This document shows positions 9,274 to 27,776 of a DNA stretch of 64,000 bases, piece after piece. Within the stretch, counting starts at the first letter, position 1. Every line of letters begins with the position of its first letter. A model generated the notes under the pieces. That model did not search any database. It was not told the origin of the DNA and saw only the letters and a list, made by a program, of their open reading frames with translations. The stretch lies in NCBI RefSeq assembly GCF_037478005.1, contig NZ_CP144164.1, positions 4,464,001 to 4,528,000 on the forward strand, written 5' to 3'. Source of the stretch: Alteromonas sp. M12. GTDB taxonomy: Bacteria; Pseudomonadota; Gammaproteobacteria; Enterobacterales; Alteromonadaceae. Both the position numbers and the translations under genes were made by a program.

Positions 9274-9403
9274 GAGTTACTTCCGTTGTCGATTGGTTAA
9301 TTTTAGAATAGCCGAAATCATATAAGCATGAGCGCTATTAGCCGTATAAGAAAATCGGTTGAAGCTATAACAATTTCAGCGAATAACAATTTATTAACGT
9401 CTT

Positions 9404-9640
9404 CTATCCACTTTGTCTCAGCAAACACCCTAGTTCGTCGCAAACTGAAAAATTCATAGTTTTTACAGACCCGTTAAGCAAGCGAAGATTTTTTGAATAG
9501 GCATACTCGCGCCCATCATGTGCTTGCACAGATAACTCAAATACTGGGAATTGGTTGCGTTTCCCCTTATTAACTAAATCCTGGATAACATCAAGATTAT
9601 GCGCTCCAAATTTAGTAGACTCATGAATTACAGATTGGAC
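9404..9640 (-). other. Protein-like open frame without a start codon, in the 384-base gap 9274-9657
   Basis: On the minus strand a frame is open from just after a TAA (9641-9643) to a TAG (9404-9406), about 78 codons. It reads like a folded protein (LDVIQDLVNKGKRNQFPVFE, then NFSVCDELGCLLRQSG) but has no ATG, GTG or TTG in its first half. It could be a decayed gene remnant or chance. The rest of the gap holds the promoter of the M20 gene; I recognise nothing else in it. Confidence 0.2.
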
Positions 9641-9657
9641 TTAGAGGATCAACAAGG

Positions 9658-10965
9658 GTGAAACTTTCAACATATTTAATAACTTTATTATTAAGTTTAG
9701 TGATTTCTAGCAAGGCTTTCAGCGCTGATTTAGAAACTCTGATTGCCCAAAAAAGTGACGAGATTGAGGCTGAAGTGATTAAGTTAAGACGTCATTTCCA
9801 TGAAAATCCGGAGCTGTCTAATCGCGAATTTGAAACCGCAAAAACAGTTGCTGCCTATTTACAAGCTCTTGGTATGGAAGTAGAAACTGGGGTTGCCTTT
9901 ACCGGCGTTGTAGGTGTTCTCAAAGGTGGCAAGCCGGGTAAAGTACTAGCTCTAAGAGCGGATATGGATGCGTTACCTGTTACTGAACAAACTGGTTTAC
10001 CATTCGCTTCAAAACAACGAACTCAATACAATGGTAAAGAGGTTGGCGTGATGCACGCTTGTGGACACGACGCTCATATGGCGATTATGTTGGGTACTGC
10101 CAAAGTACTGGCGAGCATAAAAGAACAGATTCCAGGCACTGTTAAATTTATATTCCAGCCCGCTGAAGAGGGAGCGCCACTAGATGAAGACGGTGGTGCA
10201 GCAATGATGATTAAAGAAGGTGTGTTAGAGGGTAAATATGCACCCGAAGCAATATTTGGTTTGCATGTATGGCCATATAAATCCGGTGATATTCTATATC
10301 GTCCTAAAGGAGCCATGGCAGCAGTGGACACCTTTTTCATCGAAGTAACCGGCAAGCAAACCCATGGTTCATCGCCTTGGTTAGGTGTAGATCCCATTTT
10401 AGCTGCCAGCCAAATTGTGACCGCAATTCAAACTATTCCAAGCAGACAACTTGACATCACTGCGGCACCTTCGGTGATCACAGTGGGCACTATTGAAGGT
10501 GGTTTGAGACATAATATAATCTCCGAAAAAGTCTCCATGAGCGGTACTATTCGTACCTTTGATAAAGGTGTTCGTGAAGAGTTACTAAAACGCTTAAAAT
10601 CTACGGTTGAAACCGCTGCTTCTTTGACTGGTGCTAAAGCCGATTTTAAAGTCATATCAGCAACTTTAGTCACCTACAACGACGAAGCATTGACCGCACA
10701 AATGCTACCTACAATTAAAAAAGTGGTTGGTGAGGAACATGTGCGCCAAAATGCTGTGATTATGGCTGGGGAAGACTTTTCCTATTTCCAAGACAAAATT
10801 CCAGGATTGTATTTTATGTTGGGTATTGGGGCTGATGGTGTGCCAGAAGAAGACATGAAAACCAATCACAGTCCTGATTTTTACGTCAATGAAAAGGCCT
10901 TAAAGACCGGTGTAAAAGTGATGTCATCCTTGGCTGTAGACTATTTAAATAGTGCATCCGAATAA
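9658..10965 (+). CDS. Exported M20 family amidohydrolase (amidohydrolase/carboxypeptidase)
   Basis: A 435-residue zinc hydrolase with a Sec signal peptide (MKLSTYLITLLLSLVISS, cut near AFSA). Zn-ligand motifs of the M20D subfamily are visible: GVMHACGHDAHMAIMLG, then FQPAEEG and GLHVWPY, and MAGEDFSYFQ near the C-terminus. These enzymes cleave N-acyl or amino-acid amides such as hippurate or indole-acetyl amino acids; the substrate is unknown. Location is periplasmic or surface. The start is GTG with AGAGG some 11 bases upstream. It appears monocistronic, closed by the hairpin at 10990. Confidence 0.88.
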   Translation: MKLSTYLITLLLSLVISSKAFSADLETLIAQKSDEIEAEVIKLRRHFHENPELSNREFETAKTVAAYLQALGMEVETGVAFTGVVGVLKGGKPGKVLALRADMDALPVTEQTGLPFASKQRTQYNGKEVGVMHACGHDAHMAIMLGTAKVLASIKEQIPGTVKFIFQPAEEGAPLDEDGGAAMMIKEGVLEGKYAPEAIFGLHVWPYKSGDILYRPKGAMAAVDTFFIEVTGKQTHGSSPWLGVDPILAASQIVTAIQTIPSRQLDITAAPSVITVGTIEGGLRHNIISEKVSMSGTIRTFDKGVREELLKRLKSTVETAASLTGAKADFKVISATLVTYNDEALTAQMLPTIKKVVGEEHVRQNAVIMAGEDFSYFQDKIPGLYFMLGIGADGVPEEDMKTNHSPDFYVNEKALKTGVKVMSSLAVDYLNSASE

Positions 10966-10989
10966 TATTCACTAAACCACAGACAATTA

Positions 10990-11015
10990 AGCACCGTTAT
11001 TCAAATAGCGGTGCT
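10990..11015 (+). terminator. Rho-independent terminator after the M20 gene
   Basis: A 12-bp stem (AGCACCGTTATT with AATAGCGGTGCT, one G-T pair) with a 2-base loop, followed by AATACATTTTT. It lies 25 bases after the stop codon. Confidence 0.82.
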
Positions 11016-11081
11016 AATACATTTTTCAAAGTGCATGCAAATTGCGAAATGTTTAACACATAACCTAATAAGACAACTACT

Positions 11082-12245
11082 GTGCCCCAATTAACTCTTA
11101 GTCAAATCAATATTTATCCTATTAAATCCTGTGCAGGTATTTCCTTATCCAGTAGCAAAGTAGAGCAAATGGGTTTGGAATTTGATCGCAGATTTGTATT
11201 AACCCAAACCAATGGCACCTTTATCACTGCGAGAACCGACAGCACCTTGTGCCTTGTTCAAACGGAGGTCACGGCAACAGGTTTGCGATTAAATGCGCCA
11301 GGAATGCCAGAATTAATTATCAAATATGCAGAGTTTTCTGAAAAATATCAGACGGTGAAAGTTTGGGAAGATGACATAAATGGACAATATTGCGATCCTA
11401 TTTATGATCACTGGTTTAGTCAGTTTCTTGGCAAACCATGTAAATTGGTGTTCTTTGGCGAACAATCAAAGCGTCGGGTTAAAAACAGTGACAGTGAGGT
11501 ATCTTTTGCTGATGGCTATCCATTTTTAGTAATTTCACAGCAAAGTTTAAATGATCTAAATTCACGTTTAGCTACACCAGTGACAATGAGTCAATTTCGG
11601 CCTAATTTAGTCATCGATAATTGTGCGCCATTTGAGGAAGATAATTGGAAAAAAATTCGCATAGGTGAAGTTGAATTTGAGATCATGAAGTCATGTTCGC
11701 GATGTATTTTCACAACAGTTGATCCAATTACTGGCGAAAAAAACCCTCAATTAGAACCCCTTTCAACGCTACAAAAGTACCGTAAAGATAAAAAAGGCGA
11801 TGTACTTTTTGGGCAAAATCTCATTGCCCTTAATAGCGGAAACTTAAGCCTAAACGATGAAGTGGTTGTCACTGAACGGCAAACTCGCACTATTCATTTT
11901 GACCTAGGCTCGAAGCCAGCAAGAAAAGCCGGAAGATCACCAATTCAAGCAGAGAGCACTGAGCAGAGCGCAATAAAATCTGTGGAAATCGCTTTTTCTA
12001 GCTGGAATGTGAATCACCAAGGTGACAATCAAACCTCCATTTTAGAGCAAGGGGAAGCCGCCGGCTTAAACTTACCTTACTCTTGTCGAGCGGGGATTTG
12101 CGGCAGATGCAAAGTCAAACTCAATAGTGGTCAGGTCAAGAACATAAACGAACTTACTGGCTTAACAGAGCAACAAGCAAACCAAGGTTACATACTTGCG
12201 TGCAGTTGTGTCCCTCAAACCGATGTGGAAATTACTAAAGCATAA
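11082..12245 (+). CDS. MOSC domain protein with C-terminal [2Fe-2S] ferredoxin domain (YcbX-like)
   Basis: A 387-residue protein in three parts: an N-terminal MOSC beta-barrel domain (IYPIKSCAGISL, residues 10-21), a MOSC domain (about 120-270) with the molybdenum-cofactor-binding Cys region near MKSCSRCIFTTVDP, and a plant-type ferredoxin at about 300-387 with the CRAGICGRCK...ACSC cluster ligands. This layout matches E. coli YcbX, which reduces N-hydroxylated compounds with the molybdenum cofactor. The start is GTG at 11082. It appears to be a single gene convergent with nagA. Confidence 0.85.
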   Translation: MPQLTLSQINIYPIKSCAGISLSSSKVEQMGLEFDRRFVLTQTNGTFITARTDSTLCLVQTEVTATGLRLNAPGMPELIIKYAEFSEKYQTVKVWEDDINGQYCDPIYDHWFSQFLGKPCKLVFFGEQSKRRVKNSDSEVSFADGYPFLVISQQSLNDLNSRLATPVTMSQFRPNLVIDNCAPFEEDNWKKIRIGEVEFEIMKSCSRCIFTTVDPITGEKNPQLEPLSTLQKYRKDKKGDVLFGQNLIALNSGNLSLNDEVVVTERQTRTIHFDLGSKPARKAGRSPIQAESTEQSAIKSVEIAFSSWNVNHQGDNQTSILEQGEAAGLNLPYSCRAGICGRCKVKLNSGQVKNINELTGLTEQQANQGYILACSCVPQTDVEITKA

Positions 12246-12263
12246 CCGCGGGTGGTGCATAGA

Positions 12264-13400
12264 TTATATTTGAGCCCCTTCATGGGTAACCTGAACACCA
12301 CCAATCCAACAACCTAAGGTATTCAGTTGATCATCTAACAGCACAAAATCCGCTTGCATCCCCACACTTATTTTACCTCTATCTGAGCAATCTAAAAAAC
12401 GAGCGGGAGTTAAACTTGCCATATTTAGCGCTGACTCTAAGGCTATTCCCATATTTTGATGAATATTACTCACTGCTGATGCCATATCCAGAGCGGAGCC
12501 AGCTAAGGTGCCATCGGGTAAGGTGAGTTTGTTACCGGTACGTATAATATGCGTATCCAGCCAAGGTAAGGATTCAACATCAGCCCCAACATGTGCCATG
12601 GCATCCGTCACCAACATTAAATTCTGCCAGCCTTTGCACTGGAACGCTAAACGGCAATTGTAAGGGTGGACATGTAATTCATCGGCTATCAGTCCACAAG
12701 TAACTCGGGGATCGTGCAATGCTGCAGCCACCATTCCTGGATTTCGCGCCGCCAAGCCTGACATGGCATTGAATAAATGCGTAAACCCACTAGCGCCAGC
12801 ATCGATGGCTTGCAGAGCAGTATCAATGTCAGCATTTGAGTGACCCAAAGAAACAATCACACCGCAGCTTACCAATTCCGATATCTGTGCAGCTGAGACA
12901 TTTTCGGGGGCCACAGTGACCACAACTTTACCCAAATCTTGACGACAAAAAATCGCCATTTCCTCTTCGCTTAGCGGTCTTATTTCATGACTTGAGTGAA
13001 TTCCGCGCTTAGGAATACTCAGATGAGGCCCTTCAAAGTGTATGCCCAAAATTCCCGGTTCTTTTAACACAATCGCTTCTGCAATAGCGTCTGCCGCTTG
13101 CTGCATAATGGCCAAATTGTCGGTAATCAGTGTTGGTAACATTGCTGTTGTGCCAAACAAACTGTGTGCTTGTCTGATTTTTCTGATCGTAGTCAGGCTC
13201 GGTTGTTGATTAAACATGAGCCCGCCACCACCATTCACTTGAGTATCAATAAAACCAGCTGTCACCAACCCCTTTAAAGGTAAATCTGTGGATTGGGGAT
13301 TCGTATCTAATCCGCGTATAACCCCGTTTTCAACACTCAACCTGACATTATCTCGAATACATTGCCCATCGAACAATCGACTGGCGTGGTAAAAAGTCAT
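12264..13400 (-). CDS. nagA: N-acetylglucosamine-6-phosphate deacetylase
   Basis: A 378-residue amidohydrolase. Metal and substrate motifs of NagA are present: HFEGPHLSIPKRGIHS (near residue 130), VSLGHSNAD, FTHLFNAMSGL, and LVTDAMAHVGA with the catalytic Asp. It removes acetate from GlcNAc-6-P, giving GlcN-6-P. CAGGAATC precedes the ATG. It lies 94 bases downstream of a GlcNAc kinase gene and is very probably co-transcribed with it. The window has no nagB, transporter or NagR/NagC regulator beside it, so the rest of chitin/GlcNAc catabolism is elsewhere. Confidence 0.93.
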   Translation of the reverse strand: MTFYHASRLFDGQCIRDNVRLSVENGVIRGLDTNPQSTDLPLKGLVTAGFIDTQVNGGGGLMFNQQPSLTTIRKIRQAHSLFGTTAMLPTLITDNLAIMQQAADAIAEAIVLKEPGILGIHFEGPHLSIPKRGIHSSHEIRPLSEEEMAIFCRQDLGKVVVTVAPENVSAAQISELVSCGVIVSLGHSNADIDTALQAIDAGASGFTHLFNAMSGLAARNPGMVAAALHDPRVTCGLIADELHVHPYNCRLAFQCKGWQNLMLVTDAMAHVGADVESLPWLDTHIIRTGNKLTLPDGTLAGSALDMASAVSNIHQNMGIALESALNMASLTPARFLDCSDRGKISVGMQADFVLLDDQLNTLGCWIGGVQVTHEGAQI

Positions 13401-13494
13401 ATTTGATTCCTGTGTGATTAGCCTAATTATCTCAATTGGAGTTAACTTGGATTAAAAGGGTCGTTACATTCTCGCTAAAACACAACAGCGAGCG

Positions 13495-14388
13495 CTACTT
13501 GCTGTTATGTAATAGGTCAAATTCTCTTTTCGCCAACATAATTGCGCCATACTCTGGTGCGGCAATTGGTGGCTGAATAGAGCCTTGAATATCTTCATCC
13601 AACCAAGGTTGGATGCGTGAGGCTAACCCACCTATAAAGGCGGTACGTTGAGGCCCATGAGTCTGTAATTTTCTCGCCAAAGAGCTCAAATAAGTTGCTC
13701 CTTGTTTGACAATTCCTGTTGCAACAAAATCGTTTTGATCTGCATATTCGAACACTAATGGCGCTAATTTAGCAAAATCTGCGGAACTGGAGGTTAAATA
13801 TTTTTCGACTATTTGGGCGGGATCTGAACAATTAAAAAACTGAAAAACCGCCTCAACAAATGGACTTGATGGTGCAATGCCATCGAAACTTTCTAATGCC
13901 CAACGCACAGTTTGCAGTCCCATCCAAGCACCGCTGCCTTTATCGCCTAACAAAAATCCATGGCCTCCGTACTCAAACTGCAGCCCCTGATTACAGGCAA
14001 GCGCAGAACTACCGGTTCCAACTATAACAATGGCGCCTGAATCACTATTATGAGCACCTAAGCACGCAATGTATAAATCAGTACTCAGGGTCAACTGAGC
14101 GTATGGATGTTGCCACTCTAGCATTTGCGCTTTATAAAAAGGTAAATTCAAGCCAGCAAGCCCCATAGCTGTGTAGGTATTTGCCAAGGCGGAATTAGGT
14201 AAACCCGCAAGCTTTACAACCTGTTCACTGACCTGTTGGATGGATGCCATTGCCAATTGCTGATCCCGTGCAGGATTCGCAGGGCCGGCGACACTTTCAG
14301 CTAAAAGATTTCCTTGTGCATCTTCTAAGCGCGCTTTGCACTTACTACCACCACCATCAATACCCAAAAAATAGGAAGGATTAAGCAA
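13495..14388 (-). CDS. nagK: N-acetylglucosamine kinase, BadF/BadG family
   Basis: About 297 residues of the ASKHA superfamily. Phosphate-1 loop FLGIDGGGSKCKARL is at the N-terminus, IVIVGTGSSALA is the phosphate-2/adenosine motif, GDKGSGAWMGL follows, and IGGLASRIQPW is near the C-terminus. It phosphorylates GlcNAc released in the cytoplasm, feeding nagA downstream. Two starts are possible. An ATG at 14418 has no ribosome site. A TTG at 14386-14388 has GAGG eight bases before it and yields LNPSYFLGIDGGG, the usual length for the family, so I choose the TTG. Confidence 0.86.
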   Translation of the reverse strand: MLNPSYFLGIDGGGSKCKARLEDAQGNLLAESVAGPANPARDQQLAMASIQQVSEQVVKLAGLPNSALANTYTAMGLAGLNLPFYKAQMLEWQHPYAQLTLSTDLYIACLGAHNSDSGAIVIVGTGSSALACNQGLQFEYGGHGFLLGDKGSGAWMGLQTVRWALESFDGIAPSSPFVEAVFQFFNCSDPAQIVEKYLTSSSADFAKLAPLVFEYADQNDFVATGIVKQGATYLSSLARKLQTHGPQRTAFIGGLASRIQPWLDEDIQGSIQPPIAAPEYGAIMLAKREFDLLHNSK

Positions 14389-14569
14389 TTTTATGTCCTC
14401 ATAGCAATCAAATTGCATTCTAACATGATATTTTTGCAGCTTGATTAAATCACCTCTGCAGTAAATATAATTTTGTCTATTTTAGCGCTGAACAGTTAAC
14501 CATATTTGCGGGTTTAGGTACGCTTAAAATGAGGTAAGCCAAATGAGATAGAGCAGCACTAGTTTTTAC

Positions 14570-15091
14570 TTAATCGCTTCTCGGTTTTTTGATTAATTTA
14601 CGTTGTAAGGTTCTGCGATGCATTCCCAGTTGCCGAGCAGTTGCTGAAATATTTCCCTGATTAGCTTTCAGAACTTGCTGAATGTGTTCCCATTCCAACC
14701 TTGCAGGCGACATGATATTAGTATTCTGTGTGACCTCTTTTGGGGTGTCACCGGCTAACATTGCTAACAAGGTTTTACTGTCTACAGGCTTCGACAAATA
14801 ATCATCTGCACCAGCTTTAATAGCTTCAACTGCGGTCGCAATACTGGCATATCCAGTTAACAGAATGATTCGAGAAGTGGGTAATAACTGCCTTAATTGC
14901 GGCAAGATGGACAAACTATTTTGGCTGCCCACTTTTAAATCTAAAATTAAGTGTGTTGGAAATGATTGCTGTGCCATTTCTAGGCCTTTTTCCACAGTAT
15001 CTGCGTGCAAACATTGATATCCTTGGTGTGTCAGACGTCGCAATAAAATATCGGCAAAACTCTGCTCATCTTCCACTAACAAAAGTTTCAT
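14570..15091 (-). CDS. regA: RegA/PrrA/ActR-type response regulator
   Basis: A 173-residue regulator: receiver domain with acidic pocket VEDE (residues 6-9), phospho-acceptor in LILDLKV (near residue 50), a Thr/Lys pair (LLTGYAS, SKPVD), and a C-terminal Fis-type helix-turn-helix LEWEHIQQVLKANQGNISAT then RQLGMHRRTLQRKL. This last motif is nearly invariant in RegA/PrrA/ActR/RoxR, so DNA specificity is probably also conserved. In other proteobacteria the family controls respiration, cytochromes and redox balance. The ATG overlaps the stop of the sensor kinase gene by four bases. It is the last gene of the copper/redox block. Confidence 0.9.
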   Translation of the reverse strand: MKLLLVEDEQSFADILLRRLTHQGYQCLHADTVEKGLEMAQQSFPTHLILDLKVGSQNSLSILPQLRQLLPTSRIILLTGYASIATAVEAIKAGADDYLSKPVDSKTLLAMLAGDTPKEVTQNTNIMSPARLEWEHIQQVLKANQGNISATARQLGMHRRTLQRKLIKKPRSD

Positions 15092-16332
15092 TGTAGGGTT
15101 ACCAATTCTAATAAAACTTCGGCCACCGCCCCTGACTCTGAATGGTTGTACAAGCGCAGTTGCGCTCCCAAACGCTCTAATGTAGCGTGACTAAGTAATA
15201 CTCCCATACCAAATCCTTGTTGACTTTCTACTAAGGTCGACCCCAACTCGAGCAAGCTCTGTTCGGGTAGTCCGGTACCAAAATCACGGATACTGAGCAC
15301 CAGTTGACTTGTTTTAGCATGATTATTGACTTGACACTGAATTTGAATCTGTTGGCAGTTATTACGTTTACTAGATTGCACAGCATTTTGAATTAAATTT
15401 AATAACGCGGGTAACAAAGTGGTATCTGCACGAACAGCAAATTTCTCTAAGCTCGCTATTTTGTATTGGACTTCTATATCAGCAAAATTTAGCTGTACCT
15501 CTTGTTGCAATTTGACAAACAATTGAGGTATTGGAATCAGTCTTTTGGTGTTTAACTTTACCTCTTCCGACATCTCGCGAAAATCTTCCAAACGACGGCT
15601 ACATAAACTTAATTGTTCGCTCAATTGTTTGAGCAGAGGATTGTCATCATTTAATTCAAACTCAAGCTCTTCGGTTAGCAAATTTGCCGTCGCCAAGGGG
15701 GTTGCCAGTTGATGAGCAAATTGAGCTGCAGTAGTGCCTAATGCTACCAATTGTTCTTGCCGTAATTGTTCTTCCCGCAACTTGCTTACAAAACGCTCTT
15801 GGTTTCGCATAGCTTGGGCTAAAGATGCCACCACCAGCACCACCACCAATGCAGATACAACAAAATTCACCCACATTCCTAAGAAGTGTTGCTGCATATC
15901 GACCATATGCATCTGATGAGGGTCAATGCTAAAGAATAATACAGAATAAGCCACTAAAGCGGCAAAGCTGACCAACAGCAACAAGCGACGAGAAAGAGTA
16001 ACTGCGGCAATCGCGACGGGTATCAACAATAACGAAACAAAGGGGTTGGTTGCACCTTTGGCAAAGAATAACAATACTGTCAAAAGTACAATATCGAGCA
16101 AAACTTGGAACAGATATTCACCTGAGTGGGCGTTTCGATTGCCTCGATAACAATAGAATAGCAACATATTAATCGCCAACTCTAGTGCAATAATTAACTT
16201 TAAAGTTAAATAAGGAAGTGTGTATTCAAACCAATATTCGGCAAGTAAAACGACCAACAACTGCGCAAATATGAATCCATATCGCAGTTTGATGAGTTTT
16301 AATAGTTGTCGGTTAGTTTGTAGGTGTGGCAT
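15088..16332 (-). CDS. regB: RegB/PrrB-type membrane sensor histidine kinase
   Basis: A 414-residue kinase. Six hydrophobic spans (residues about 15-170) include FAKGATNPFVSLLL, which corresponds to the quinone-sensing GG-x-x-NPF loop of RegB. The phospho-acceptor box is AQFAHQLATPLAT (His near 213). The ATPase domain has N-box LLNLIQNAVQSS and G-box DFGTGLP and GFGMGVLLS. A Cys lies 37 residues after the His (QLSLCSRRLEDF), close to the redox-active Cys of RegB, which is at His+40. It lies 34 bases downstream of the barrel gene and overlaps the response regulator, so it belongs to the same transcript. Confidence 0.87.
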   Translation of the reverse strand: MPHLQTNRQLLKLIKLRYGFIFAQLLVVLLAEYWFEYTLPYLTLKLIIALELAINMLLFYCYRGNRNAHSGEYLFQVLLDIVLLTVLLFFAKGATNPFVSLLLIPVAIAAVTLSRRLLLLVSFAALVAYSVLFFSIDPHQMHMVDMQQHFLGMWVNFVVSALVVVLVVASLAQAMRNQERFVSKLREEQLRQEQLVALGTTAAQFAHQLATPLATANLLTEELEFELNDDNPLLKQLSEQLSLCSRRLEDFREMSEEVKLNTKRLIPIPQLFVKLQQEVQLNFADIEVQYKIASLEKFAVRADTTLLPALLNLIQNAVQSSKRNNCQQIQIQCQVNNHAKTSQLVLSIRDFGTGLPEQSLLELGSTLVESQQGFGMGVLLSHATLERLGAQLRLYNHSESGAVAEVLLELVTLQ

Positions 16333-16366
16333 CGAGATTAAATCACTTTAGTCTATTTTTCATTAT

Positions 16367-17545
16367 TTATAGCAGCTTATAGTGCCAAACTAAACCCACA
16401 GACCATCTACTAACCCCTTCTTCTTGGGTATCATCTTGATACCATTCAGTACGAAACCTGAAGTCTTGGTGAAACTGCCAAATCCAAGCCACAGCAGCTT
16501 TTGCCGGTTCATGGTCATTATTAAATAAGCCTGACTGTTGGATAAAGGTTTGTGATGTCTCAGTAAATCGATTGTCTACCACTAAACGCTCATACTTAGC
16601 TTGTAAGGTATGATTATCAAGTGACACGCCAACTTGAAACTTGTAACCATCTTGAGTGGCGTCTAAAACCGCTGTCTGCGTTGTGTCAGCTAGGTCAGCA
16701 TCGAAGTCAGCTCGAATCCATTCAACGTCAGCATGTAAAGTGATAGGGTTAAGTTGCCATTCAAGATTAGCAAATGCCCCGACCATAGTGGTATCACCAG
16801 AGAATGAGAGATCTGATGCGGTAAGATCTTGGTCGCCATGGCTGTGACCATCGCTATAACGTTCATCAACTCGATTCTCCGCTCGGCTATGCATTAGCCA
16901 ACTACCTAAAGTGGCATTTATCCCGTCGTGTTCATATTGATAATGGGCGAACAATGCTGCGGCACCTTCTCCGGAGGTCGCTGGCCAATTGTCGCCATTC
17001 CAAAGCTCAGCACCAAAATCAATTCCCATCAAACGGATTCTAGCGCGCGCTCCTAAGTCTCTGGAATGCCGTCCAAAAAAGACATCAGCGAGCAAAGGAG
17101 CTTCACTAAATACATCGTCAGATGCGTGAAAATTAGCCGTCAGTGTCACTTCAGTTGCCATTTTACCTACTTCAAATAACAATGGCTGTCCTGCGATAGA
17201 AGAGCGCGTCCCAAACCAAAGGTTTTCTAATTCTAACTCGCTTTCACCACTGTGACTGTGAGCCCCTACTTTGGTGCTAATGAAGTAATCATCTTTAATG
17301 TTTAAGTGCCCCAACAATTGCACATCATCCAAAGTTATACCTTTTTCTACAGGAAGCGCTTCGCCGCCAAGTAGTACACCAGGGAACTGCCAAATTTCAG
17401 TATCCGAGAACGCATCTTCGCTTCGATAAGTGATTGCGGTTCGCACTTCAACTGAGTCTGGACGCGCGGCTATGCCCTCAACTTCGTGAGCTTGCGATGT
17501 AAAAGGGACAAAAAATCCAAAAATTAAGCATGCTTTGAGTTTCAT
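16367..17545 (-). CDS. Putative outer-membrane beta-barrel protein of the MbnP/MbnH locus
   Basis: A 392-residue protein with a Sec signal peptide (MKLKACLIFGFFVPFTSQAH). The rest is rich in alternating aromatic/polar strands and ends with an aromatic-rich strand (WSVGLVWHYKLL), typical of a barrel. His-rich loops are present (GAHSHSGESE, SDGHSHGDQDL), which may bind metal. I do not recognise a named family. The ATG shares one base with the TAA of the di-heme protein gene before it (TAATG), so the two are translationally coupled. A role in metal passage over the outer membrane is inferred from context only. Confidence 0.68.
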   Translation of the reverse strand: MKLKACLIFGFFVPFTSQAHEVEGIAARPDSVEVRTAITYRSEDAFSDTEIWQFPGVLLGGEALPVEKGITLDDVQLLGHLNIKDDYFISTKVGAHSHSGESELELENLWFGTRSSIAGQPLLFEVGKMATEVTLTANFHASDDVFSEAPLLADVFFGRHSRDLGARARIRLMGIDFGAELWNGDNWPATSGEGAAALFAHYQYEHDGINATLGSWLMHSRAENRVDERYSDGHSHGDQDLTASDLSFSGDTTMVGAFANLEWQLNPITLHADVEWIRADFDADLADTTQTAVLDATQDGYKFQVGVSLDNHTLQAKYERLVVDNRFTETSQTFIQQSGLFNNDHEPAKAAVAWIWQFHQDFRFRTEWYQDDTQEEGVSRWSVGLVWHYKLL

Positions 17546-18711
17546 TATTGCTCTTCAAAAGGGTTTGAAAATTTAGGGTTATTAATAAATTCGTAATCGG
17601 TAAGTGACTCTAAAAAAGCGATCACAGCATCTATCTCTTCATCACTTGCGACAAATCCCAAGATGAGTCCAGACTTCAACGGACTTAAATTACCGTCACC
17701 GGCGTTTTCACCATATTCGATTAAACGCCCACCACGGGCATAGTGCTCGATGACTTCCCGCAATGTGGCAATACTGCCATCGTGCATGTAAGGCGCAGTT
17801 AATTCGATATTGCGAAGACTTTGTGGCCTGAACAACCCTTTATCAGCTTCATTTAAGGTTAAATCGTATAAACCTTGATCGCTTGCGGGGTAACTGCCCT
17901 CACCATCAACGTTGTACAAACCGTTATTGAAAAATGGGAATTGGATGTTGCCTGAATTTGTATTCGAGTCTCGATAGGAAACAGAAAAGTTTGCACCAGT
18001 ATGGCAATGGAAACACTCGAACCTTTCACCATTAAATAATTGAAATCCCAATTTTTGCTGTTCTGTCAGTGCGGTTTTATCGCCCAGTAAGTACTGATCA
18101 TAAGCGCTACCGGCACTTATCATGGTGCGCACAAAGCTGGCTAAAGAAAAAATGATTTTATTGATTGTGGCGCCTGTATCACTCTGAGGAAAAGCATTTG
18201 CAAACATTTCAACATAAGCGGGATCAGCATCAAAGCGTGCTAACACTTCTTCAAGTTCCGAGTCAGTAACGCCTAATTCAATAGGATTATCGGCACGAAT
18301 GGGCACATTTAGCTGATCTTCAAGTTCCAGAAACGTATCGTTGCTCCAAGTGAATGTCGAATGATAAACCACATTTGCCAAACCTTGACTGTTGCGGGTT
18401 AATTGATGGCCGGTGGAGCCTGTTGGCACTTCTAAGCCATCAGAAAAAGCCAATTGTTGGTCGTGACATGATTCACAAGATTGAGTTTGATTAGCAGACA
18501 AGCGTTTGTCGTAAAACAAAAAACGACCCAGTTCAATTTTTTCCCGAGTGAGCGGGTTAAAATCAGGAATTGCTGGCACCGCCATATGCTCAGGTAGATC
18601 CAACAATTCCCTTAGGGTTTCTTGTTGCACACTTTCTTCCACCGTCGTAGTGGACGATTGATTACAGGCACTTAACATTGCCACTATCACGACTGCAAAA
18701 ATGTACTTCAT
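17545..18711 (-). CDS. MbnH-like di-heme cytochrome c peroxidase family lipoprotein
   Basis: A 388-residue protein with lipoprotein signal (VAMLSAC, lipid Cys near 16) and two heme c sites, SCESCH (near residue 80) and CFHCH (near 235). The conserved MauG/CcpA-type C-terminal region includes RPQSLRNIELTAPYMHDGS. Proteins of this family next to an MbnP gene are the MbnH type ('metallo-mystery pair' di-heme partner), which in Methylosinus oxidises a Trp of MbnP to kynurenine. An MbnP-like gene lies 71 bases upstream in the same operon, which supports this assignment over ordinary cytochrome c peroxidase. Confidence 0.82.
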   Translation of the reverse strand: MKYIFAVVIVAMLSACNQSSTTTVEESVQQETLRELLDLPEHMAVPAIPDFNPLTREKIELGRFLFYDKRLSANQTQSCESCHDQQLAFSDGLEVPTGSTGHQLTRNSQGLANVVYHSTFTWSNDTFLELEDQLNVPIRADNPIELGVTDSELEEVLARFDADPAYVEMFANAFPQSDTGATINKIIFSLASFVRTMISAGSAYDQYLLGDKTALTEQQKLGFQLFNGERFECFHCHTGANFSVSYRDSNTNSGNIQFPFFNNGLYNVDGEGSYPASDQGLYDLTLNEADKGLFRPQSLRNIELTAPYMHDGSIATLREVIEHYARGGRLIEYGENAGDGNLSPLKSGLILGFVASDEEIDAVIAFLESLTDYEFINNPKFSNPFEEQ

Positions 18712-18782
18712 ATCATCACTTTAATTGCACTAAAATAAATATCTAATAAGGCAAAACGAAGATTCAACAACAACCTTGAAAA

Positions 18783-19742
18783 TCATTCCATACTCACGGT
18801 TAGATTGCTGCTGGCAGTCGCTTCTCCAGTGTCCCCGTCAATCCCAAAGTTAACGAATATAGGGCCGCAGTCCACTTGTGCAGAACTAGGCGCGGAGTGA
18901 CAACTTACAGCAGGTGCATCGGTTCCATTTGTTGATGCAAACGCCACATCGTTCAACACCTTTTGCACATCAATCACCACAGTATTTACCGCCGGATCAA
19001 AATCAATGAGCTCGACTTTGGGGGTATTTACAAAGTCACACTCATCTTTACCTTCAAGTGCAAGCAATCCATCTCCACCACATCCGCGACTACCTATGTG
19101 TAAGTAACCTTCACCAGCAACCCCATTGGTATCTTCAATGGCAAAGTTCATCACGAAATGGCGATAACCACCTGCCCAAGACCAATACATTTCATTTAAT
19201 GGAGAAGGAGCGTCTTCAGCTGAGTTGGTCGCAATTACATCTTTCATTACGCCTTGGGGAACACCAACATCAAAGGTCACTTTAGTGACGCCAGTATCAA
19301 ACAACGTCCCAGTTATTGAGGTATTTGTCCGAGCGGTACCTTCACTAAACGCGATTGCATCAGATTGGCAAGAACCACTTGAATTGCTGGTCATATCTAC
19401 GAGTCCAACAAAACCTTCTGCGTTTTGATACTGGAATTCGTTTTCATCTAATGTGATCTCAATCTCAACATCATACTGGTCATAAAATTTAATATTGCTC
19501 ACATAAAAACGCAGATCGCTCAAACCAACACTGTAACTCTGATCACTGCCGTATCCTGTTAGCATGGTGTCACAATTGATTTCTTCAGAACCGCTCATAG
19601 CTTTAAAGTTAAGATTAAAAGCTGTGGCTACAGGAGCCACTAAAGTATCGTCGCTGGAACTGCTTCCACCGCACCCCGTTAAAACACTAAGACCAAATAA
19701 TCCGGCGATACTGGTAGATATAAAACGTGCATTCATTTGCAT
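18783..19742 (-). CDS. MbnP-like lipoprotein ('metallo-mystery pair' four-Cys family)
   Basis: A 319-residue lipoprotein (lipobox LTGC, near residue 24, then a Gly/Ser linker). The family core is visible: FNLNFKAMSGSEEINC, LSDLRFYVSNIKFYD, TLFDTGVTKVTFDVGVPQG, NEMYWSWAGGYRHF, and paired Cys in RGCGG and DECDF. The W-S-W segment is where the Trp of MbnP is converted to kynurenine by MbnH in Methylosinus; MbnP then binds copper. The neighbouring MbnH-like gene and PCu(A)C gene fit copper handling at the cell envelope. No methanobactin precursor or biosynthetic genes are in the window. Confidence 0.83.
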   Translation of the reverse strand: MQMNARFISTSIAGLFGLSVLTGCGGSSSSDDTLVAPVATAFNLNFKAMSGSEEINCDTMLTGYGSDQSYSVGLSDLRFYVSNIKFYDQYDVEIEITLDENEFQYQNAEGFVGLVDMTSNSSGSCQSDAIAFSEGTARTNTSITGTLFDTGVTKVTFDVGVPQGVMKDVIATNSAEDAPSPLNEMYWSWAGGYRHFVMNFAIEDTNGVAGEGYLHIGSRGCGGDGLLALEGKDECDFVNTPKVELIDFDPAVNTVVIDVQKVLNDVAFASTNGTDAPAVSCHSAPSSAQVDCGPIFVNFGIDGDTGEATASSNLTVSME

Positions 19743-19779
19743 AATAGTTCTCTAATAATGAGTGGTTAATGATGAATTA

Positions 19780-20262
19780 CTAGTGATGCGAGCCTTCAGT
19801 GGCAGACTGATTAGGTTTATCTTCTACCCAAACCTCGACGGGTAGTTCTCCACTGTGTTCGAATTGCAAAGTCGCGATAAATTTATCGCCTTTTTGTAAT
19901 TGCTTTTTAAGGCCAAGCAGCATGATGTGCGCGCCTTTGGGGAGTAGCGCTAATTCTCCTTTAGCTGGAATAATTAAACCATCGCGGGCTTCACGCATTC
20001 TGGCCATATTTTGATTGAAGGTGGTTTGATGTATTTGAACCGATGAAGCAATATTTTCAGGTACTTTCACGGCAATTAACTTTTCCGATTCAGCACTGGG
20101 ATTGTGGATGTTTAGGTACACGGCCCCCGTTGTTACAACAGGCGCAGTCGGTCGAGCCCATGGATGCTCAATCTGTAATTTGCCAGCATTAAAGTCGTGT
20201 GCAAGCACGCTAAAAGAACACAAAGAAAATACAAATGTGAGTTGCCAGAGCAATATACGCAT
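19780..20262 (-). CDS. PCu(A)C-type periplasmic copper chaperone
   Basis: A 160-residue protein with a Sec signal peptide (MRILLWQLTFVFSLCSFSVLAHDF). The copper motif H-x10-M-x22-H-x-M is present: IHQTTFNQNMARM then KGAHIM. IEHPWARPTAPVVTTGAVYL is the typical family start. PCu(A)C delivers Cu(I) in the periplasm, usually to the CuA site of cytochrome oxidase. It is the first gene of the leftward run PCu(A)C, MbnP, MbnH, barrel, RegB, RegA. A His-rich tail (EGSHH) ends the protein. The promoter with a RegA-type dyad lies 40-84 bases upstream. Confidence 0.92.
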   Translation of the reverse strand: MRILLWQLTFVFSLCSFSVLAHDFNAGKLQIEHPWARPTAPVVTTGAVYLNIHNPSAESEKLIAVKVPENIASSVQIHQTTFNQNMARMREARDGLIIPAKGELALLPKGAHIMLLGLKKQLQKGDKFIATLQFEHSGELPVEVWVEDKPNQSATEGSHH

Positions 20263-20301
20263 GGCCTATTCCAATATAAACAATAACGATGATTGGCGAC
20301 C

Positions 20302-20346
20302 ATTATAGAAACTTAAGTGCTATCAACAATGCGACATATTGTCGCA
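20302..20346 (-). promoter_or_regulatory. Promoter of the copper block with a RegA/PrrA-type operator
   Basis: On the minus strand a -35 TTGTTG (20324-20329) and a perfect -10 TATAAT (20302-20307) are 16 bases apart. Directly upstream of the -35 lies the perfect dyad TGCGACA-TAT-TGTCGCA (20330-20346). Its core GCGAC-N5-GTCGC fits the published RegA/PrrA consensus GCGNC-Nx-GNCGC. The only RegA-type regulator in the window is encoded by the last gene of the operon read from here, so autoregulation is likely but inferred. Confidence 0.7.
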
Positions 20347-20428: not shown

Positions 20429-20450
20429 CCTGAATCTATATAGATTCAGG
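20429..20450. terminator. Perfect 22-bp palindrome downstream of the NosR-like gene
   Basis: Arms CCTGAATCTAT and ATAGATTCAGG abut without a true loop. It lies 36 bases after the stop of the NosR-like gene. No strong T-run follows on the minus strand, so a terminator is the first guess and an operator the second. Confidence 0.5.
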
Positions 20451-20485: not shown

Positions 20486-22576
20486 TTAAACTGCTTGCTG
20501 AGAAACGTCGATGGCTTTACCCATTTTTTTGCGCTTATTCTTTTTAAGCGGGGGGCATAAATCATCATTGTTGTAATACACAATACATTCCAAACACTGA
20601 ACGCATTCATTGTAATTAATCTCACCTTTTGGGGTGATAGCTTTGATATCACATTTATGGTGGCATAAGGTGCACGGAGAGCCACAGTCTTTCCTGCGGG
20701 TTAGCCATTCCCCCAAATGGAAATAGCCTAAAATAGCTAATCCAGCCCCCAATGGGCATACATACCGACAGTAGAACTTATTAATAAATAAACCCGCGCC
20801 AAGTAGTACCAAGGAATACACAACAAATGGCCAATAACGATAAAACTGCAAGGTAATCGTCGTTTTAAAAGGTTCAACTTCTGACAACACTTCCGCAGTG
20901 CCCAGCGAATAAATTGAGGTAAATACCAGCCCTATCAATATTGCATATTTAATCCACCACAACTTGCTGTGTAACCAATACGGCACTTTCTTTTGGCGAA
21001 TACGTAACTTTTTAGCCACCCAACCAAGCATTTCCTGCAATGCGCCAAAAGGACATAACCACCCACAAAATATTCCACGGCCGACTATAAACAAGCTGAT
21101 AAAAACGTAGATCCACAAAATAAACAACACCGGATCCATTAAATACATTTGAATTTCAAAGCCTTTGAATAGACTTTGAATAATTGGAAATATATTAACT
21201 ACCGATAATTGCCCTTGCGCATACCAACCGATGAAAAACAGGGTGAAAAACATGAACCCCCAACGTACCACACGGAACAATTTTTGATTAGCAGACAACC
21301 GATGCTGATAGACGAAAATAAAAGTGACGGCGATTAAGCTAATAACTAAAACGCTTATCACAGCAATCCGAGATTCCCATATTCTTACCCATGGCGGTGT
21401 AGCGGCCTCAACTTCAACAGCCTCCGCAATATCAAAAAGAGACAGTGGCAACTTATATTCATTCTGAAAACTAGCTTGTTGTTGTACGAGGTGGTTTTTA
21501 GCCACTGTTATATTGAGGGAAAACTGCATCGGTAAACTAGGATTAAATCCCGACTGCGTATTAACCACAAACAGTTGTAAATCATCGGCGATTGGCGCTT
21601 GTTGCGCTAGGCTAGGCTCAGTAAAGCTATAAAAATTTAAATCCCGCATCGCCAGCGGTAAACTGCCTTGCTCCAAACTAATCTGGTTTGCCACTGTACC
21701 TGGCTTGAAATCATCTTCCAGATAGTGATAAAAACCTTCTGACATAACCGCAAACGCTTGTTCGTTAGGCTTTAATCCGTCCATTAATCGTTGGTACTCA
21801 CCCTCACCAAGCAAATTAATGCCAATACTAGGAGCATTCAAATAGGCGTAGTAAATAGTAAATTCATCACCTTGTTCGGTGGTGAATGTATCTGTTGGAA
21901 AGTCTTCTAATGCGGCATGTAATTGTTGTTCAAATTGTTCTCGGGTTAGCGTCCATTTTTGCACATAGTTTTTGTCTAAAAGTTGTTGCCATGTGAGTGG
22001 CTGAAAATCGTCGTTAGGGGTAGCTAAAGGCGCAACTGTAAAACCCTCCAACATATTTCTAGCCACTTGCAAAGAAGACAACAAAACAGTGTCATTGACC
22101 ACAATCACAGAGACAGTGGCTTTGGTAACGCCATCAACATGTACAGTGTTGTCATCGGGATTGGTATCGTTAGCGGCTTTGTCTACTATGATTCGATTGG
22201 ATACGTTTTTACCAATGTATTGGGCAATGAATGCATTTAATGGCTCAGGACCTAAACCATGCAGAAATATTGGCTCATGATGCGCTAAAATTTGAATCCC
22301 TTTGATGTTGCCTAAAGTGTCGAGTCCAATCAAAAGGTTAATTTTGTCGCCTGAAAAACCCGGAAGTTCGACTAAGTCATTTGTTTGAAATACGTAACCA
22401 AGTAATTCTTGAAGTTGATATACCGGTTGTACCGGATACTCCGCTAGGGTTTCACCGATTAACGTGGCTTTAGGAAATATTTGTTTGATTTGTTCTTCAG
22501 GTATGGCAGACGCCTGCGCTGCGCTATGCAAGAAGGTGATTGCGAATATGATTAAACAATTGCGAACAAGCATCAT
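20486..22576 (-). CDS. NosR/NirI-family membrane flavin/iron-sulfur protein
   Basis: A 696-residue protein. After a signal peptide (MMLVRNCLIIFAITFLHS) comes a periplasmic FMN-binding domain with likely covalent flavin site DGVTKATVS (near residue 143). Several membrane spans follow (about 405-640) with polyferredoxin motifs FCGWLCPFGALQE and YCRYVCPLGAG, then two cytoplasmic-type 4Fe-4S sites (CGSPCTLCHHKC and CVQCLECIVYYN). NosR and NirI support nitrous oxide and nitrite reduction, but no nos or nir gene is near. It lies just downstream of the PQQ dehydrogenase gene on the same strand, separated by two terminator hairpins. Electron transfer across the membrane for envelope redox enzymes is a reasonable role; the partner is unknown. 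Confidence 0.85.
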   Translation of the reverse strand: MMLVRNCLIIFAITFLHSAAQASAIPEEQIKQIFPKATLIGETLAEYPVQPVYQLQELLGYVFQTNDLVELPGFSGDKINLLIGLDTLGNIKGIQILAHHEPIFLHGLGPEPLNAFIAQYIGKNVSNRIIVDKAANDTNPDDNTVHVDGVTKATVSVIVVNDTVLLSSLQVARNMLEGFTVAPLATPNDDFQPLTWQQLLDKNYVQKWTLTREQFEQQLHAALEDFPTDTFTTEQGDEFTIYYAYLNAPSIGINLLGEGEYQRLMDGLKPNEQAFAVMSEGFYHYLEDDFKPGTVANQISLEQGSLPLAMRDLNFYSFTEPSLAQQAPIADDLQLFVVNTQSGFNPSLPMQFSLNITVAKNHLVQQQASFQNEYKLPLSLFDIAEAVEVEAATPPWVRIWESRIAVISVLVISLIAVTFIFVYQHRLSANQKLFRVVRWGFMFFTLFFIGWYAQGQLSVVNIFPIIQSLFKGFEIQMYLMDPVLFILWIYVFISLFIVGRGIFCGWLCPFGALQEMLGWVAKKLRIRQKKVPYWLHSKLWWIKYAILIGLVFTSIYSLGTAEVLSEVEPFKTTITLQFYRYWPFVVYSLVLLGAGLFINKFYCRYVCPLGAGLAILGYFHLGEWLTRRKDCGSPCTLCHHKCDIKAITPKGEINYNECVQCLECIVYYNNDDLCPPLKKNKRKKMGKAIDVSQQAV

Positions 22577-22637
22577 GGCAATTGGCTTCCTAATTTGCCT
22601 CAGTTGATAAACAAACTGACGTAATCAAATTAAAAAC

Positions 22638-22663
22638 GGTCTGGCAAATACAGCTGCCAGACC
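22638..22663 (-). terminator. Second of two tandem terminators after the PQQ dehydrogenase gene
   Basis: Arms GGTCTGGCA and TGCCAGACC (9 bp, 8-base loop). On the minus strand it is followed by GTTTTTAATT. Together with the hairpin at 22679-22709 it separates the PQQ dehydrogenase from the NosR-like gene. Confidence 0.82.
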
Positions 22664-22678
22664 ACTTAAATAAAAAAC

Positions 22679-22709
22679 GTGACAAGATGGTGGGACCCCC
22701 CCTTGTCAC
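22679..22709 (-). terminator. First tandem terminator after the PQQ dehydrogenase gene
   Basis: Arms GTGACAAG and CTTGTCAC (8 bp) with a loop that holds GGG/CCC pairs. On the minus strand it is followed by GTTTTTTATTT. It lies 11 bases after the stop codon. Confidence 0.85.
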
Positions 22710-22719
22710 GGCGCCAACA

Positions 22720-24483
22720 TTAACTGCGTGGCAATTTAAAGGTCCAAACGGTTCCTCCTTGGTTGATATCTTTGATGGTCTTAGCAACTTCACCGCCCCA
22801 CAATGGAACAGCGCCACCCCATCCAGATAACACGCTCAGGTATTGTTCACCGTCTTTTTCCCAAGTCACAGGCGAGCCAACAATGCCTGATCCAGTATTA
22901 AACTTATAAACGACTTCACCAGTCTTGGCATTAAAGCCATATAAATAACCTTCAGGTGTTCCAGTGAACACTAAGTTACCAGCAGTGGCCAATACACCAC
23001 CCCATAAAGGCGATTTATTTTTGAATTCCCAGACCAATTCGCCGGTTTTAGGATCAACCGCTTTTAATGAACCTATGTGGTCGAAAATAGGTTTAATGGT
23101 AAAGCCAGAACCTAAATAAGCCGCACCTTTTTTGTAATTTACCGGCTCATTCCAAATGTCCATGCCCCATTCATTAGAAGGTACATAGAACAATCCAGTA
23201 TCTTGACTGTAAGCCATAGGCATCCAGTTTTTACCACCTAAGAATGCAGGTACAGAAAAGATCGATTTACCCTTCTCACCTGACTCAGAGTCGGCTGGAT
23301 TTCCTGGACGACCTGTTTCACTAAAAATTGGGCGTCCGTTTTCATCTAAGCCCGTAGCCCAAGTAATCCCGTTAACAAATGGAAATCCGCGAATGAACTT
23401 ACCGTCTTCACGGTTAAGAACATAAAAGTAACCATTTCTATCTGCGGTTGCTGCTGCTTTTACCGTTTTGCGGCCATCTTTATAGTCAAACGCAATAACT
23501 TCGTTCACACCATCAAAATCCCAACCATCATGTGGCGTGGTTTGAAAATGCCAAACAATTTTTCCAGTATCAGGATCGATGGCTAAACGGGATGAACTGT
23601 ATAAGTTGTCACCTGGACGTAGGTGGGAGTTCCATGGTGCTGGGTTACCAGTACCCATAAATATCAAATCTGTATCTGGATCATAGGTGCCACCTAACCA
23701 AGTAGCTGCGCCACCAGTTTTCCACAGGTCGCCGGTCCAGGTTTTGTTTGCTTCGCCGCCAGTAATCCCGTTCTCTTTACCATTGAGGTATCCCATGTGG
23801 CCTTCTACAGTGGGACGCAACCAAATTAACTCACCGGTTTTAGCATCTCGGGCTTCAACTTTACCCACTACCCCAAACTCACCACCAGATATACCCGTCA
23901 CGACCATACCTTTAACGATCATAGGTGCTGCAGTAGATGAGTAACCTGCTTTGTAATCACCCATCTTTTTACGCCAGCGAACCTTACCGGTTTTCTGATC
24001 CAAGGCGACCAATATTGCATCTAGCGTACCGAAGATAACCAAGTCATCATAGATTGCCACACCACGGTTAATCACATCACAACAAGGCATGATGCCATCA
24101 GGTAGTCGAGCTTCGTACTGCCAAAGTTCATCACCAGTGTCCACATCAATTGCATACACTCGAGAATAGGACCCCGTCACGTACATCACACCATCTTTCA
24201 CTATTGGCTGTGATTCTTGACCACGTTGTTTCTCGCCCCCTAAAGAGAAAGCCCAAACAGGATGCATTTTTTTGACATTTTTGGTATTCAGAGTATCAAG
24301 TGGACTGTATCGCTGACCACGAGGACCAAGACCATAACTAACCACATCATCTGTGGTTTGCTGGTCGTTGATAATATCTTTATCTGTGACTGCGGCATGC
24401 GCACTTGCACTTAACACCCCAAACGCGAGGGATAGGCCAAGTGTCGTACTAAGCAATTGGCCTGAAATTTTTCGGCTTTTCAT
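22720..24483 (-). CDS. PQQ-dependent alcohol dehydrogenase, lanthanide type (XoxF/ExaF/PedH-like)
   Basis: About 587 residues with a Sec signal peptide (ends near SAHA/AVT) and eight-bladed propeller W-motifs (repeated [14 protein letters not shown]). It has the vicinal disulfide Cys-Cys in [12 protein letters not shown] (near 134-135). Metal ligands expected in quinoprotein alcohol dehydrogenases are visible: Glu in GGEFGVVG (near 202), Asn in GTGNPAPWN (near 280) and catalytic Asp in [11 protein letters not shown] (Asp near 322). The Asp two residues later (near 324) is the extra ligand that marks lanthanide-dependent enzymes; calcium enzymes of the MxaF type have Ala there. It oxidises a primary alcohol in the periplasm and passes electrons to cytochrome c. 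The ATG at 24483 is preferred for its GGAGA site and signal peptide. No pqq biosynthesis genes are in the window. Confidence 0.9.
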
Positions 24484-24881
24484 TAGAATTCTCCAGTAGT
24501 TCAACAGGTACTTTAAGGCGTTACACCGCCTTTATTGTTTTTCCGAGGCGGTCCTACGTACTGACTGGTATCCCCGGGATTTAATGTAATTGTCCGTCTC
24601 TTGCGGTAAAACGTATTAAACTGCTTTCACCACCTTAGCCGTCGTGAATTAGTATCGAACAACAACTTGTTAACAACCATTGAACCTTGGATTATCATTC
24701 TTAGTCCGTTAGTAGTAGTACTTAGCAAAAAATTACGCATTCTAAAGTCCCAAACAATCTAAATACTTTTTTTCACTATTTGCTTGTTAATTCACTTTCA
24801 ACAGCGTTTGCGGATTATTAGGCAAATTGAAAAAGCCTAATTGCACAAATGAGGAGGAGGAAATTACAGATTGAAAATTGA
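24484..24881 (-). promoter_or_regulatory. Upstream region of the PQQ dehydrogenase, with 5' hairpin and recurrent motif
   Basis: No gene is visible in this stretch of about 400 bases. A 7-bp hairpin (ACCGCCT 24525-24531 with AGGCGGT 24546-24552) would lie in the 5' leader. TTAGTAGTAGTA at 24709-24720 shares 11 bases with the site at 50668-50678 upstream of a TonB receptor gene. No clear -35/-10 pair stands out. Confidence 0.4.
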
Positions 24882-24901
24882 TTAGAGCACTGCGGCTCTA
24901 A
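24882..24901 (-). terminator. Hairpin after the XoxJ-like gene
   Basis: Arms TTAGAGC and GCTCTAA (7 bp, 6-base loop), with TCAATTTTC following on the minus strand. It lies ten bases after the stop of the XoxJ-like gene, so that gene and the dehydrogenase probably form separate transcripts, or readthrough is partial. Confidence 0.65.
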
Positions 24902-24910
24902 CCAAGGGTG

Positions 24911-25804: not shown

Positions 25805-25807
25805 GGC

Positions 25808-26254: not shown

Positions 26255-26318
26255 TATCGTTCTCCAAAAGTTGTCTTAAAGTCATCTAAAAGTCTTAGCT
26301 GGTCTCTAGAAGCAGACA

Positions 26319-27773: not shown

Positions 27774-27776
27774 ATC

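Follow-up and report, generated by a model that had tools for sequence, protein, structure and literature searches.

In this study, we analyzed a window of 64,000 nucleotides from the marine bacterium Alteromonas sp. M12 (contig NZ_CP144164.1, positions 4,464,001 to 4,528,000) and, within it, a leftward run of six genes encoding a periplasmic copper chaperone, the MbnP/MbnH pair, an outer-membrane barrel, and a RegB-like/RegA-like two-component pair. As proposed in a first-pass annotation, the run lies on the minus strand (14570..20346) with short gaps or overlaps, and the coordinates confirm this: the gaps measure 37 nt between PCuAC and MbnP, 71 nt between MbnP and MbnH, and 34 nt between the barrel and RegB-like genes, while MbnH overlaps the barrel gene by 1 nt and the RegB-like gene overlaps the RegA-like gene by 4 nt. 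The upper end of the interval proposed there, 20346, coincides exactly with the end of a predicted RegA-type operator (20330-20346). Family scans named no TonB receptor in or beside the run, and general family scans, with no dedicated search, gave none of the MbnA, MbnB, and MbnT families among the names around the operon; Rfam and tRNA scans returned no matches.

Table 1. Features of the operon and its upstream region, with window coordinates.
Feature	Coordinates	Strand	Basis
PCu(A)C periplasmic copper chaperone, first gene of the operon	19780..20262	-	PF04314, 105.5 bits (gathering score 29.4)
MbnP, copper-binding protein family, WxW (WSWAGGYR)	18783..19742	-	TIGR04052; solved chain 7l6g
MbnH, MauG-like di-heme enzyme	17545..18711	-	TIGR04039; solved chain 6e1c; two CxxCH
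His-rich outer-membrane barrel, predicted porin fold, 16 strands	16367..17545	-	structure model; no family
RegB-like histidine kinase: KGATNPF loop, redox Cys, His/Met-rich TM5-TM6 loop	15088..16332	-	NF033792
RegA-like response regulator, Fis-type helix-turn-helix (HTH) HRRTLQRKL, lacking Cys156	14570..15091	-	NF033791
Predicted RegA-type operator, perfect inverted repeat TGCGACA-N3-TGTCGCA	20330..20346	.	genome scan
Putative -10 element TATAAT, 22 nt downstream of the operator	20302..20307	-	spacing comparison with other promoters
Perfect 22-bp palindrome separating the NosR-like gene from the operon; may mark a transcript boundary	20429..20450	.	

Both copper-protein assignments of the first pass hold. 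MbnP scores 225.6 bits against TIGR04052 (cut-off 140) and aligns with 7l6g at E 2.2e-11, and MbnH scores 485.4 bits against TIGR04039 (cut-off 362.85) and aligns with 6e1c at E 1.4e-96; both thus exceed their NCBIfam cut-offs. The haem sites of MbnH are CESCH and CFHCH, and two CxxCH motifs occur in 20/20 loci checked. The WxW pattern of MbnP is present in 16 of the 20 and absent from L165, L170, L174, and L176. MbnH oxidizes a tryptophan of MbnP, and the copper site of MbnP is reportedly kynurenine-dependent, as Manesis is said to have described in 2021. The barrel called at first pass is supported by a structure model, which predicts a porin fold matching solved porins. In one locus (L121:8919-9954, Psychrosphaera), MbnP is split over two frames that overlap (268 and 115 bits), possibly because of a frameshift or sequencing error.

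The identification of the regulatory genes as RegBA stands in part. Their best families are indeed NF033792 (173.2 bits) and NF033791 (163.5 bits), but the pair is divergent: the curated cut-offs of 350 and 250 are missed, the H-box of RegB reads HQLATPL in place of HELGTPL, and RegA lacks Cys156. Compared with GGxxNPF, the quinone heptapeptide KGATNPF of the window RegB keeps NPF and has Lys for the first Gly. The redox Cys (Cys265 column, after the H-box) is present, with LSEQLSLCSRRL aligned to LRSQSERCREIL and similar sequences, and in the alignment NPF and this Cys column are kept in all nine linked gammaproteobacterial RegB. RegB of the order is split between NPF in MbnPH-linked rows and NAF in 21 of 22 others, L111 (NPF) being the exception; among 115 RegB homologues, 72 carry NPF and 41 NAF. 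Quinone sensing may be lost or changed in the NAF kinases. In the linked gammaproteobacterial rows, the phospho-His is followed by Gln, Arg, or (in L182) His; with the other rows of the order added, Asp and Asn also occur at this position, and Glu in no case. RegA carries KANQGN where the eight alphaproteobacterial rows shown carry Cys, for example ELCDRN. Copper/oxygen dimerization of Rhodobacter RegA is reported via Cys156 (PMC9147068; here and below, papers are cited for the parts of their text available to us). Since the window RegA lacks this Cys, dimerization of the Rhodobacter type cannot work identically, and we ruled it out here. In the same paper, RegB is held off by ubiquinone in its oxidized form and when Cys265 is oxidized (PMC9147068).

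Other species share the arrangement. Named genomes were scanned with an MbnH alignment, and among the best 80 of 177 loci, nine (L112, L113, L114, L120, L121, L122, L124, L141, and L182) have the barrel, then RegB and RegA, on the same strand behind MbnPH. Their labels are Aliiglaciecola, Psychrosphaera, Paraglaciecola arctica (twice), and, for a further two assemblies, Gammaproteobacteria and Hahella. Additionally, RegB and RegA in L170 (Oceanobacter) follow a different protein that is barrel-like by eye, and RegBA lies upstream or divergent within ~3 kb of MbnPH in 5/80 loci (L139, L165, L174, L176, and L179; Myxococcota-type or unnamed assemblies). These counts are lower bounds, some contigs being short; L186, with RegBA ~9 kb off and a contig end, and L180, with a different two-component system, were not counted as linked. 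In L180 (12898-14897, Vibrio), that system matches weakly (23 and 36 bits) and lies convergent beside an MbnP-MbnH-barrel-PCuAC operon. MbnP-MbnH-barrel loci without RegBA also exist (L115-L119, L125, L127, and others). In the five loci tested (L124, L139, L165, L170, and L182), NF033792 and NF033791 again come out as the best families of RegB and RegA, with every score below cut-off. A quick RegB tree (67 rows) groups the nine gammaproteobacterial linked rows, counted with the window but without L112, in one clade (SH-aLRT 98) and the five Myxococcota-type linked rows in a separate one (99); the linkage label needs three changes, at least two of them on starred branches. Given the recurrence in the MbnH-seeded scan, a one-off chance neighborhood was rejected. 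As a control, 0/30 RegBA regions of a phylum-wide sample have an MbnP or barrel match; exceptions of another kind are a 90-bit MbnH-type match with a receptor (L247) and PCuAC beside RegB (L243). Viral contigs contained no MbnH relative.

Within the 300 bases ahead of the first gene of the nine linked operons, from which the motif was derived, we observed the palindrome TGCGACAATATGTCGCA or close variants in every case. Counting the window, L112 (same species), and L170 (scan), the operator is present in 11/11 gammaproteobacterial linked loci. It shares the ten dyad bases GCGAC-N5-GTCGC with the Rhodobacter capsulatus RegA site at ccoN, while many other RegA sites in the same list depart from this dyad (PMC5359404, Table 2). 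At least 12 of 14 positions are matched upstream of MbnP in 26 of the 76 loci (among the 80) with a usable MbnP, compared with 1/1376 control windows, and at least 13 in 16/76, compared with 0/1376. When the nine motif-source loci are removed, 17/67 windows still reach at least 12 positions; the operator therefore also occurs at operons without linked RegBA. Furthermore, matches of at least 5/6 to TATAAT lie 22 or 23 nt from the site in 15 of 18 gammaproteobacterial MbnP/PCuAC promoters selected for carrying it (duplicate loci removed), whereas shuffles gave a mean of 0.62 and a maximum of 5 in 2000 draws. This spacing is not seen in four Myxococcota-type promoters and L161, and all 32 distinct sites, receptors included, show only a slight peak at 22-23 nt, the receptor promoters being spaced differently. 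With this spacing, the palindrome would be centered near -43, where an activator in contact with the -35 region is expected to sit. RegA probably binds at 20330-20346 and would activate rather than repress the operon, and the direct control by the RegBA pair suggested at first pass gains strong sequence support from an operator at the promoter.

We then compared genomes by counting mismatches to the 14 fixed bases of the operator, with the pattern read backwards as control. This genome (5.01 Mb) has one site with 0 mismatches, at the operon, and none with 1; at up to 2 mismatches there are 12 sites, compared with 7 for the control. The first residues of the frames flanking the eleven 2-mismatch sites, which are unannotated, reveal no copper theme. 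Among 295 genomes of the order, 28 have MbnH above cut-off and 70 a RegB relative at 1e-25. The perfect site occurs in 58: 54/70 with RegB and 4/225 without (Fisher p 1.4e-39, the genomes not being independent), and the control pattern matches in 5. Of these 58 genomes, 46 have one perfect site, 10 have two, and 2 have three, and 31 of the 72 perfect sites lie within 6 kb of RegB.

The genes behind the site elsewhere in the order extend this picture. In 10/20 RegBA regions, a TonB receptor is convergent to RegBA (that of L092 and nine with >500 bits to it), and in all ten a site lies within 2-239 bp of the upstream edge of the receptor frame. Of 29 perfect sites inspected among the 72 (L300 repeats the L101 site), 15 precede a TonB receptor, 2 a NosR-type gene, and 4 a His/Met-rich DHTH..GEWM protein, and 8 are beside RegB or unclear. 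TonB-copper (TIGR01778) is the best family for 7 of 8 receptors tested, several with low scores (72-81 bits), and a hemin family is best for L306. The L304 receptor (497 bits) exceeds the TIGR01778 cut-off of 472.45 and carries the CxxxM of OprC; those of L295 (460) and L296 (446), both cut by the locus end, fall just under it. Collectively, these genes suggest a theme, though not a proof, of copper demand and outer-membrane uptake.

Several of these loci deserve separate description. In L316 and L317 (G147, G255), the perfect site lies at a NosR promoter; in both genomes the NosR-type gene is followed by a NosZ above its cut-off (1051 bits in G147 and 1078 in G255), and the further genes are nosDFYL-like by eye. 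The His/Met-rich family with DHTH..GEWM.SYR-like motifs has a perfect site directly upstream in L308, L313, L314, L315, and L327. Three members were tested, with one weak Pfam match (Phenol_MetA_deg), and the family is a candidate copper protein. Outside the order, isolated cases fit the same theme. The site lies ahead of a DHxH..GEFMWSYR protein in L327 and, in L329, ahead of RegB as well as of a receptor; in L331, whose genome gave no RegB match at 1e-40, it lies ahead of a TonB receptor with a PepSY_TM gene behind it. In L326 (G615; 3897 and 7865-14001), two secreted-looking HTRL..VP proteins, a thioredoxin-like protein, DUF4266, and DUF3570 form a cluster with two perfect sites inside and a third 4 kb away.

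What RegB senses can be read in more than one way. It might mainly be a periplasmic copper sensor, in which loop-bound copper switches the kinase or phosphatase state, with the quinone loop and the cysteine as inherited features of secondary weight; we regard this as a tentative but serious contender. The TM5-TM6 loop of the window RegB, DPHQMHMVDMQQHFLGMW, is predicted to face the periplasm, since TM6 runs on into the cytoplasmic kinase (crude hydropathy). Its composition fits a metal-binding loop: the His plus Met fraction is 0.36 in nine linked gammaproteobacterial rows and 0.39 in 22 rows of the order, compared with 0.10 in 20 RoxS-like rows and 0.07 in 10 alphaproteobacterial rows above cut-off, and the remaining membrane region lies at 0.02-0.04 across the groups. 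The five Myxococcota-type linked rows are also His-rich (0.21), and His147 (30/31), Met151 (28/31), and His154 (31/31) are nearly invariant in the gammaproteobacterial rows. Direct copper sensing is thus possible. However, the rich loop is common to the whole gammaproteobacterial clade, linked or unlinked; it occurs in 26/28 hand-labelled copper-linked rows and 14/39 others, a difference for which an independent-pairs tree test, having no power, gave no significance. Moreover, Met/His loops can bind other metals, several RoxS-like rows also have His at the His154 position, and NPF and the redox Cys are retained in all nine linked gammaproteobacterial rows. In a wider form of the idea, which we advance with slightly more reserve, a branch of the RegB family would have turned into a copper sensor: one kinase would read loop copper (H144, M146, H147, M151, and H154) together with the quinone pool and so weigh the supply of copper against the demand of respiration. 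Acting at a single RegA operator for each target, the system would run both copper respiration (nos) and the acquisition of copper at the outer membrane (MbnPH-porin, OprC-type receptors). Such a branch would span several families of the order, with a parallel in Myxococcota. A literature search on RegB-type copper sensors, judged by title and abstract start and with subscription papers mostly outside its scope, found none on this topic.

RegBA could also be a general redox regulator that happens to sit in the operon, the copper genes being one of many targets. The RegA-like protein is by far the best RegA-family match of the genome, and the only strong one (163 bits; next 65), and known RegBA systems are global (PMC5359404, PMC9147068) and RegA sites degenerate (PMC5506826). 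Yet a regulator of this kind sits poorly with the single site at 0-1 mismatches, the small excess over the control at up to 2, and the one perfect site of most site-bearing genomes of the order; G272, a genome of the same genus, yielded neither an MbnH nor a RegB match and lacks the perfect site. We consider it unlikely; RegBA here looks like a local rather than a global regulator, weak sites perhaps existing besides the strong one. Envelope copper-binding proteins can buffer copper, and the operon might instead protect from copper excess, with MbnP and PCuAC binding the surplus and the barrel serving efflux. Two-component systems such as CusRS and CopRS do control periplasmic copper (PMC7763554), but elsewhere the same site precedes copper receptors and N2O reductase operons, which lie on the demand side; copper lowers the similar partner proteins MopE and CorA (PMC3621798), and family scans found no efflux pump or multicopper oxidase family among the genes of the run. 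Protection from excess is, in our view, the least probable of these readings.

The reading that we favor, as probable though well short of certain, is a dedicated, self-regulated RegBA switch of a copper-acquisition operon. Gene order and its recurrence, the palindrome, the -10-like spacing, and the co-occurrence with RegB are established by sequence; copper as cargo, the nature of the signal, and the role of the barrel we infer. When copper is short, copper (haem-copper) oxidases would slow and quinol would build up. RegB in the inner membrane would read the respiratory chain through its quinone loop and redox cysteine, and possibly periplasmic copper through the His/Met-rich loop. It would then phosphorylate RegA, which would bind the palindrome at the -35 edge and activate the operon, so that RegBA would regulate its own expression. 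MbnH would oxidize the MbnP tryptophan, allowing MbnP to bind copper, the porin-fold barrel would pass copper or a copper chelate across the outer membrane, and PCu(A)C would deliver copper to its targets. Such an oxidase-linked mechanism fits with a report from a different bacterium, in which haem-copper oxidases have a dedicated import of copper (PMC12914433).

Several observations weigh against this dedicated copper switch. Both regulators fall below their curated cut-offs, and kinase activity of the window RegB is not assured, because Gln, not an acid, follows the phospho-His. An operon headed by PCuAC is seen only in the window, L112, L113, and L122; the other six linked gammaproteobacterial loci show no PCuAC nearby. 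No linkage was found in 20 MbnH regions of the order, nor in 20 of its RegBA regions; L100 has a weak MbnH-type match (135 bits) ~9 kb from RegB. Beyond the order, co-occurrence is weak: in a phylum-wide sample, counted by hand with RegB-positive defined as NF033792 at 1e-40, the site occurs in 24/249 genomes, 17/116 positive and 7/133 negative, two of these seven (G005 and G015) having had a RegB match in the order-level search. The ten RegBA-adjoining receptors have AGPNAMD and lack the Cys that is essential in OprC (PMC8610252). The degeneracy of RegA sites implies that further weak targets may exist, and a non-copper metal is possible, as RegA of Methylomonas directly controls ferrous iron uptake (PMC13274454). 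Finally, copper-oxidase supply, offered at first pass as a possible purpose, stays conjectural: the genome carries two COX1-type genes, and neither has a site at up to 2 mismatches.

Compared with known systems, the pair resembles RegB/RegA (PrrBA, ActSR, RegSR) in its redox Cys, Fis-type RegA HTH, and ccoN-type site, and in part in its GGxxNPF-type loop, where NPF is kept and the first Gly is Lys. Its transcript-like context with a copper chaperone gene recalls alphaproteobacterial RegBA with senC (PMC9147068, PMC5359404). In group 1, regA and/or regB are described as invariably cotranscribed with senC (PMC9147068), so the first-pass statement that no such case is described needs qualifying; our literature search, with subscription papers mostly outside its scope, found no paper with both MbnH and RegB. 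In contrast to the alphaproteobacterial systems, the window pair scores below cut-off, has HQLATPL, lacks Cys156, has PCuAC-MbnP-MbnH-barrel neighbors rather than SenC, and shows one strong operator and a His/Met-rich loop predicted to be periplasmic. The MbnP and MbnH genes are adjacent, above cut-off, and carry WxW and two CxxCH, as in the solved pair (7l6g, 6e1c), but they are linked to a His-rich barrel and RegBA, and general family scans, with no dedicated methanobactin search, gave neither a methanobactin gene nor a TonB receptor for the run and its surroundings. MopE/SACCP and CorA/CorB of methanotrophs likewise combine a copper-binding protein with a di-heme partner (PMC3621798). The predicted outer-membrane copper acquisition resembles that of cruR-crtA and OprC/NosA: MbnPH-like and PcuAC genes are found in cruR operons for copper uptake (PMC9426467), and PCuAC in a few crtA operons (PMC12914433). 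Unlike these, the window operon has no TonB receptor and has RegBA in place of the CruR upstream open reading frame. For the barrel, the OprP/OprO ion-specific porins are among the closest known systems. MbnPH/PcuAC in uptake operons and RegBA with senC are therefore known, and RegBA as a local, one-operator copper switch would be the new element.

Upstream of the operon, the window contains a NosR-like FMN/Fe-S protein (657 bits, cut-off 1000) and genes for a PQQ-dependent alcohol dehydrogenase, cytochrome c, solute-binding proteins, a beta-propeller, an ABC-2 transporter, and a LuxR-type regulator (20486-31018). The NosR-like and PQQ-dehydrogenase genes (20486-24504) were dropped as operon members, because the operator sits past the NosR-like stop and the L122 operon occurs without them (upstream sequence covers 8.4 kb there, but only 0.5 kb in L113). 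A nosZ operon was also rejected as the explanation of the NosR-like gene, since a NosZ query found nothing in the genome, an empty result that alone is weak. The terminator scan did not pick the palindrome at 20429..20450. Directly downstream on the same strand, genes for a BadF-type kinase and an amidohydrolase (12264-14418) probably belong to amino-sugar metabolism, and the same scan gave no site between RegA and these genes.

To our knowledge, the sensing of copper shortage by bacteria is much less understood than that of copper excess. If RegBA is indeed a switch dedicated to copper genes, the respiratory redox state, perhaps together with periplasmic copper, would serve as a readout of copper sufficiency. 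MbnP/MbnH outside methanobactin operons would then be tied to a regulator that recurs and to a predicted operator for which any genome can be scanned. Moreover, the system suggests that a globally regulating family can shrink to a local one-site switch.

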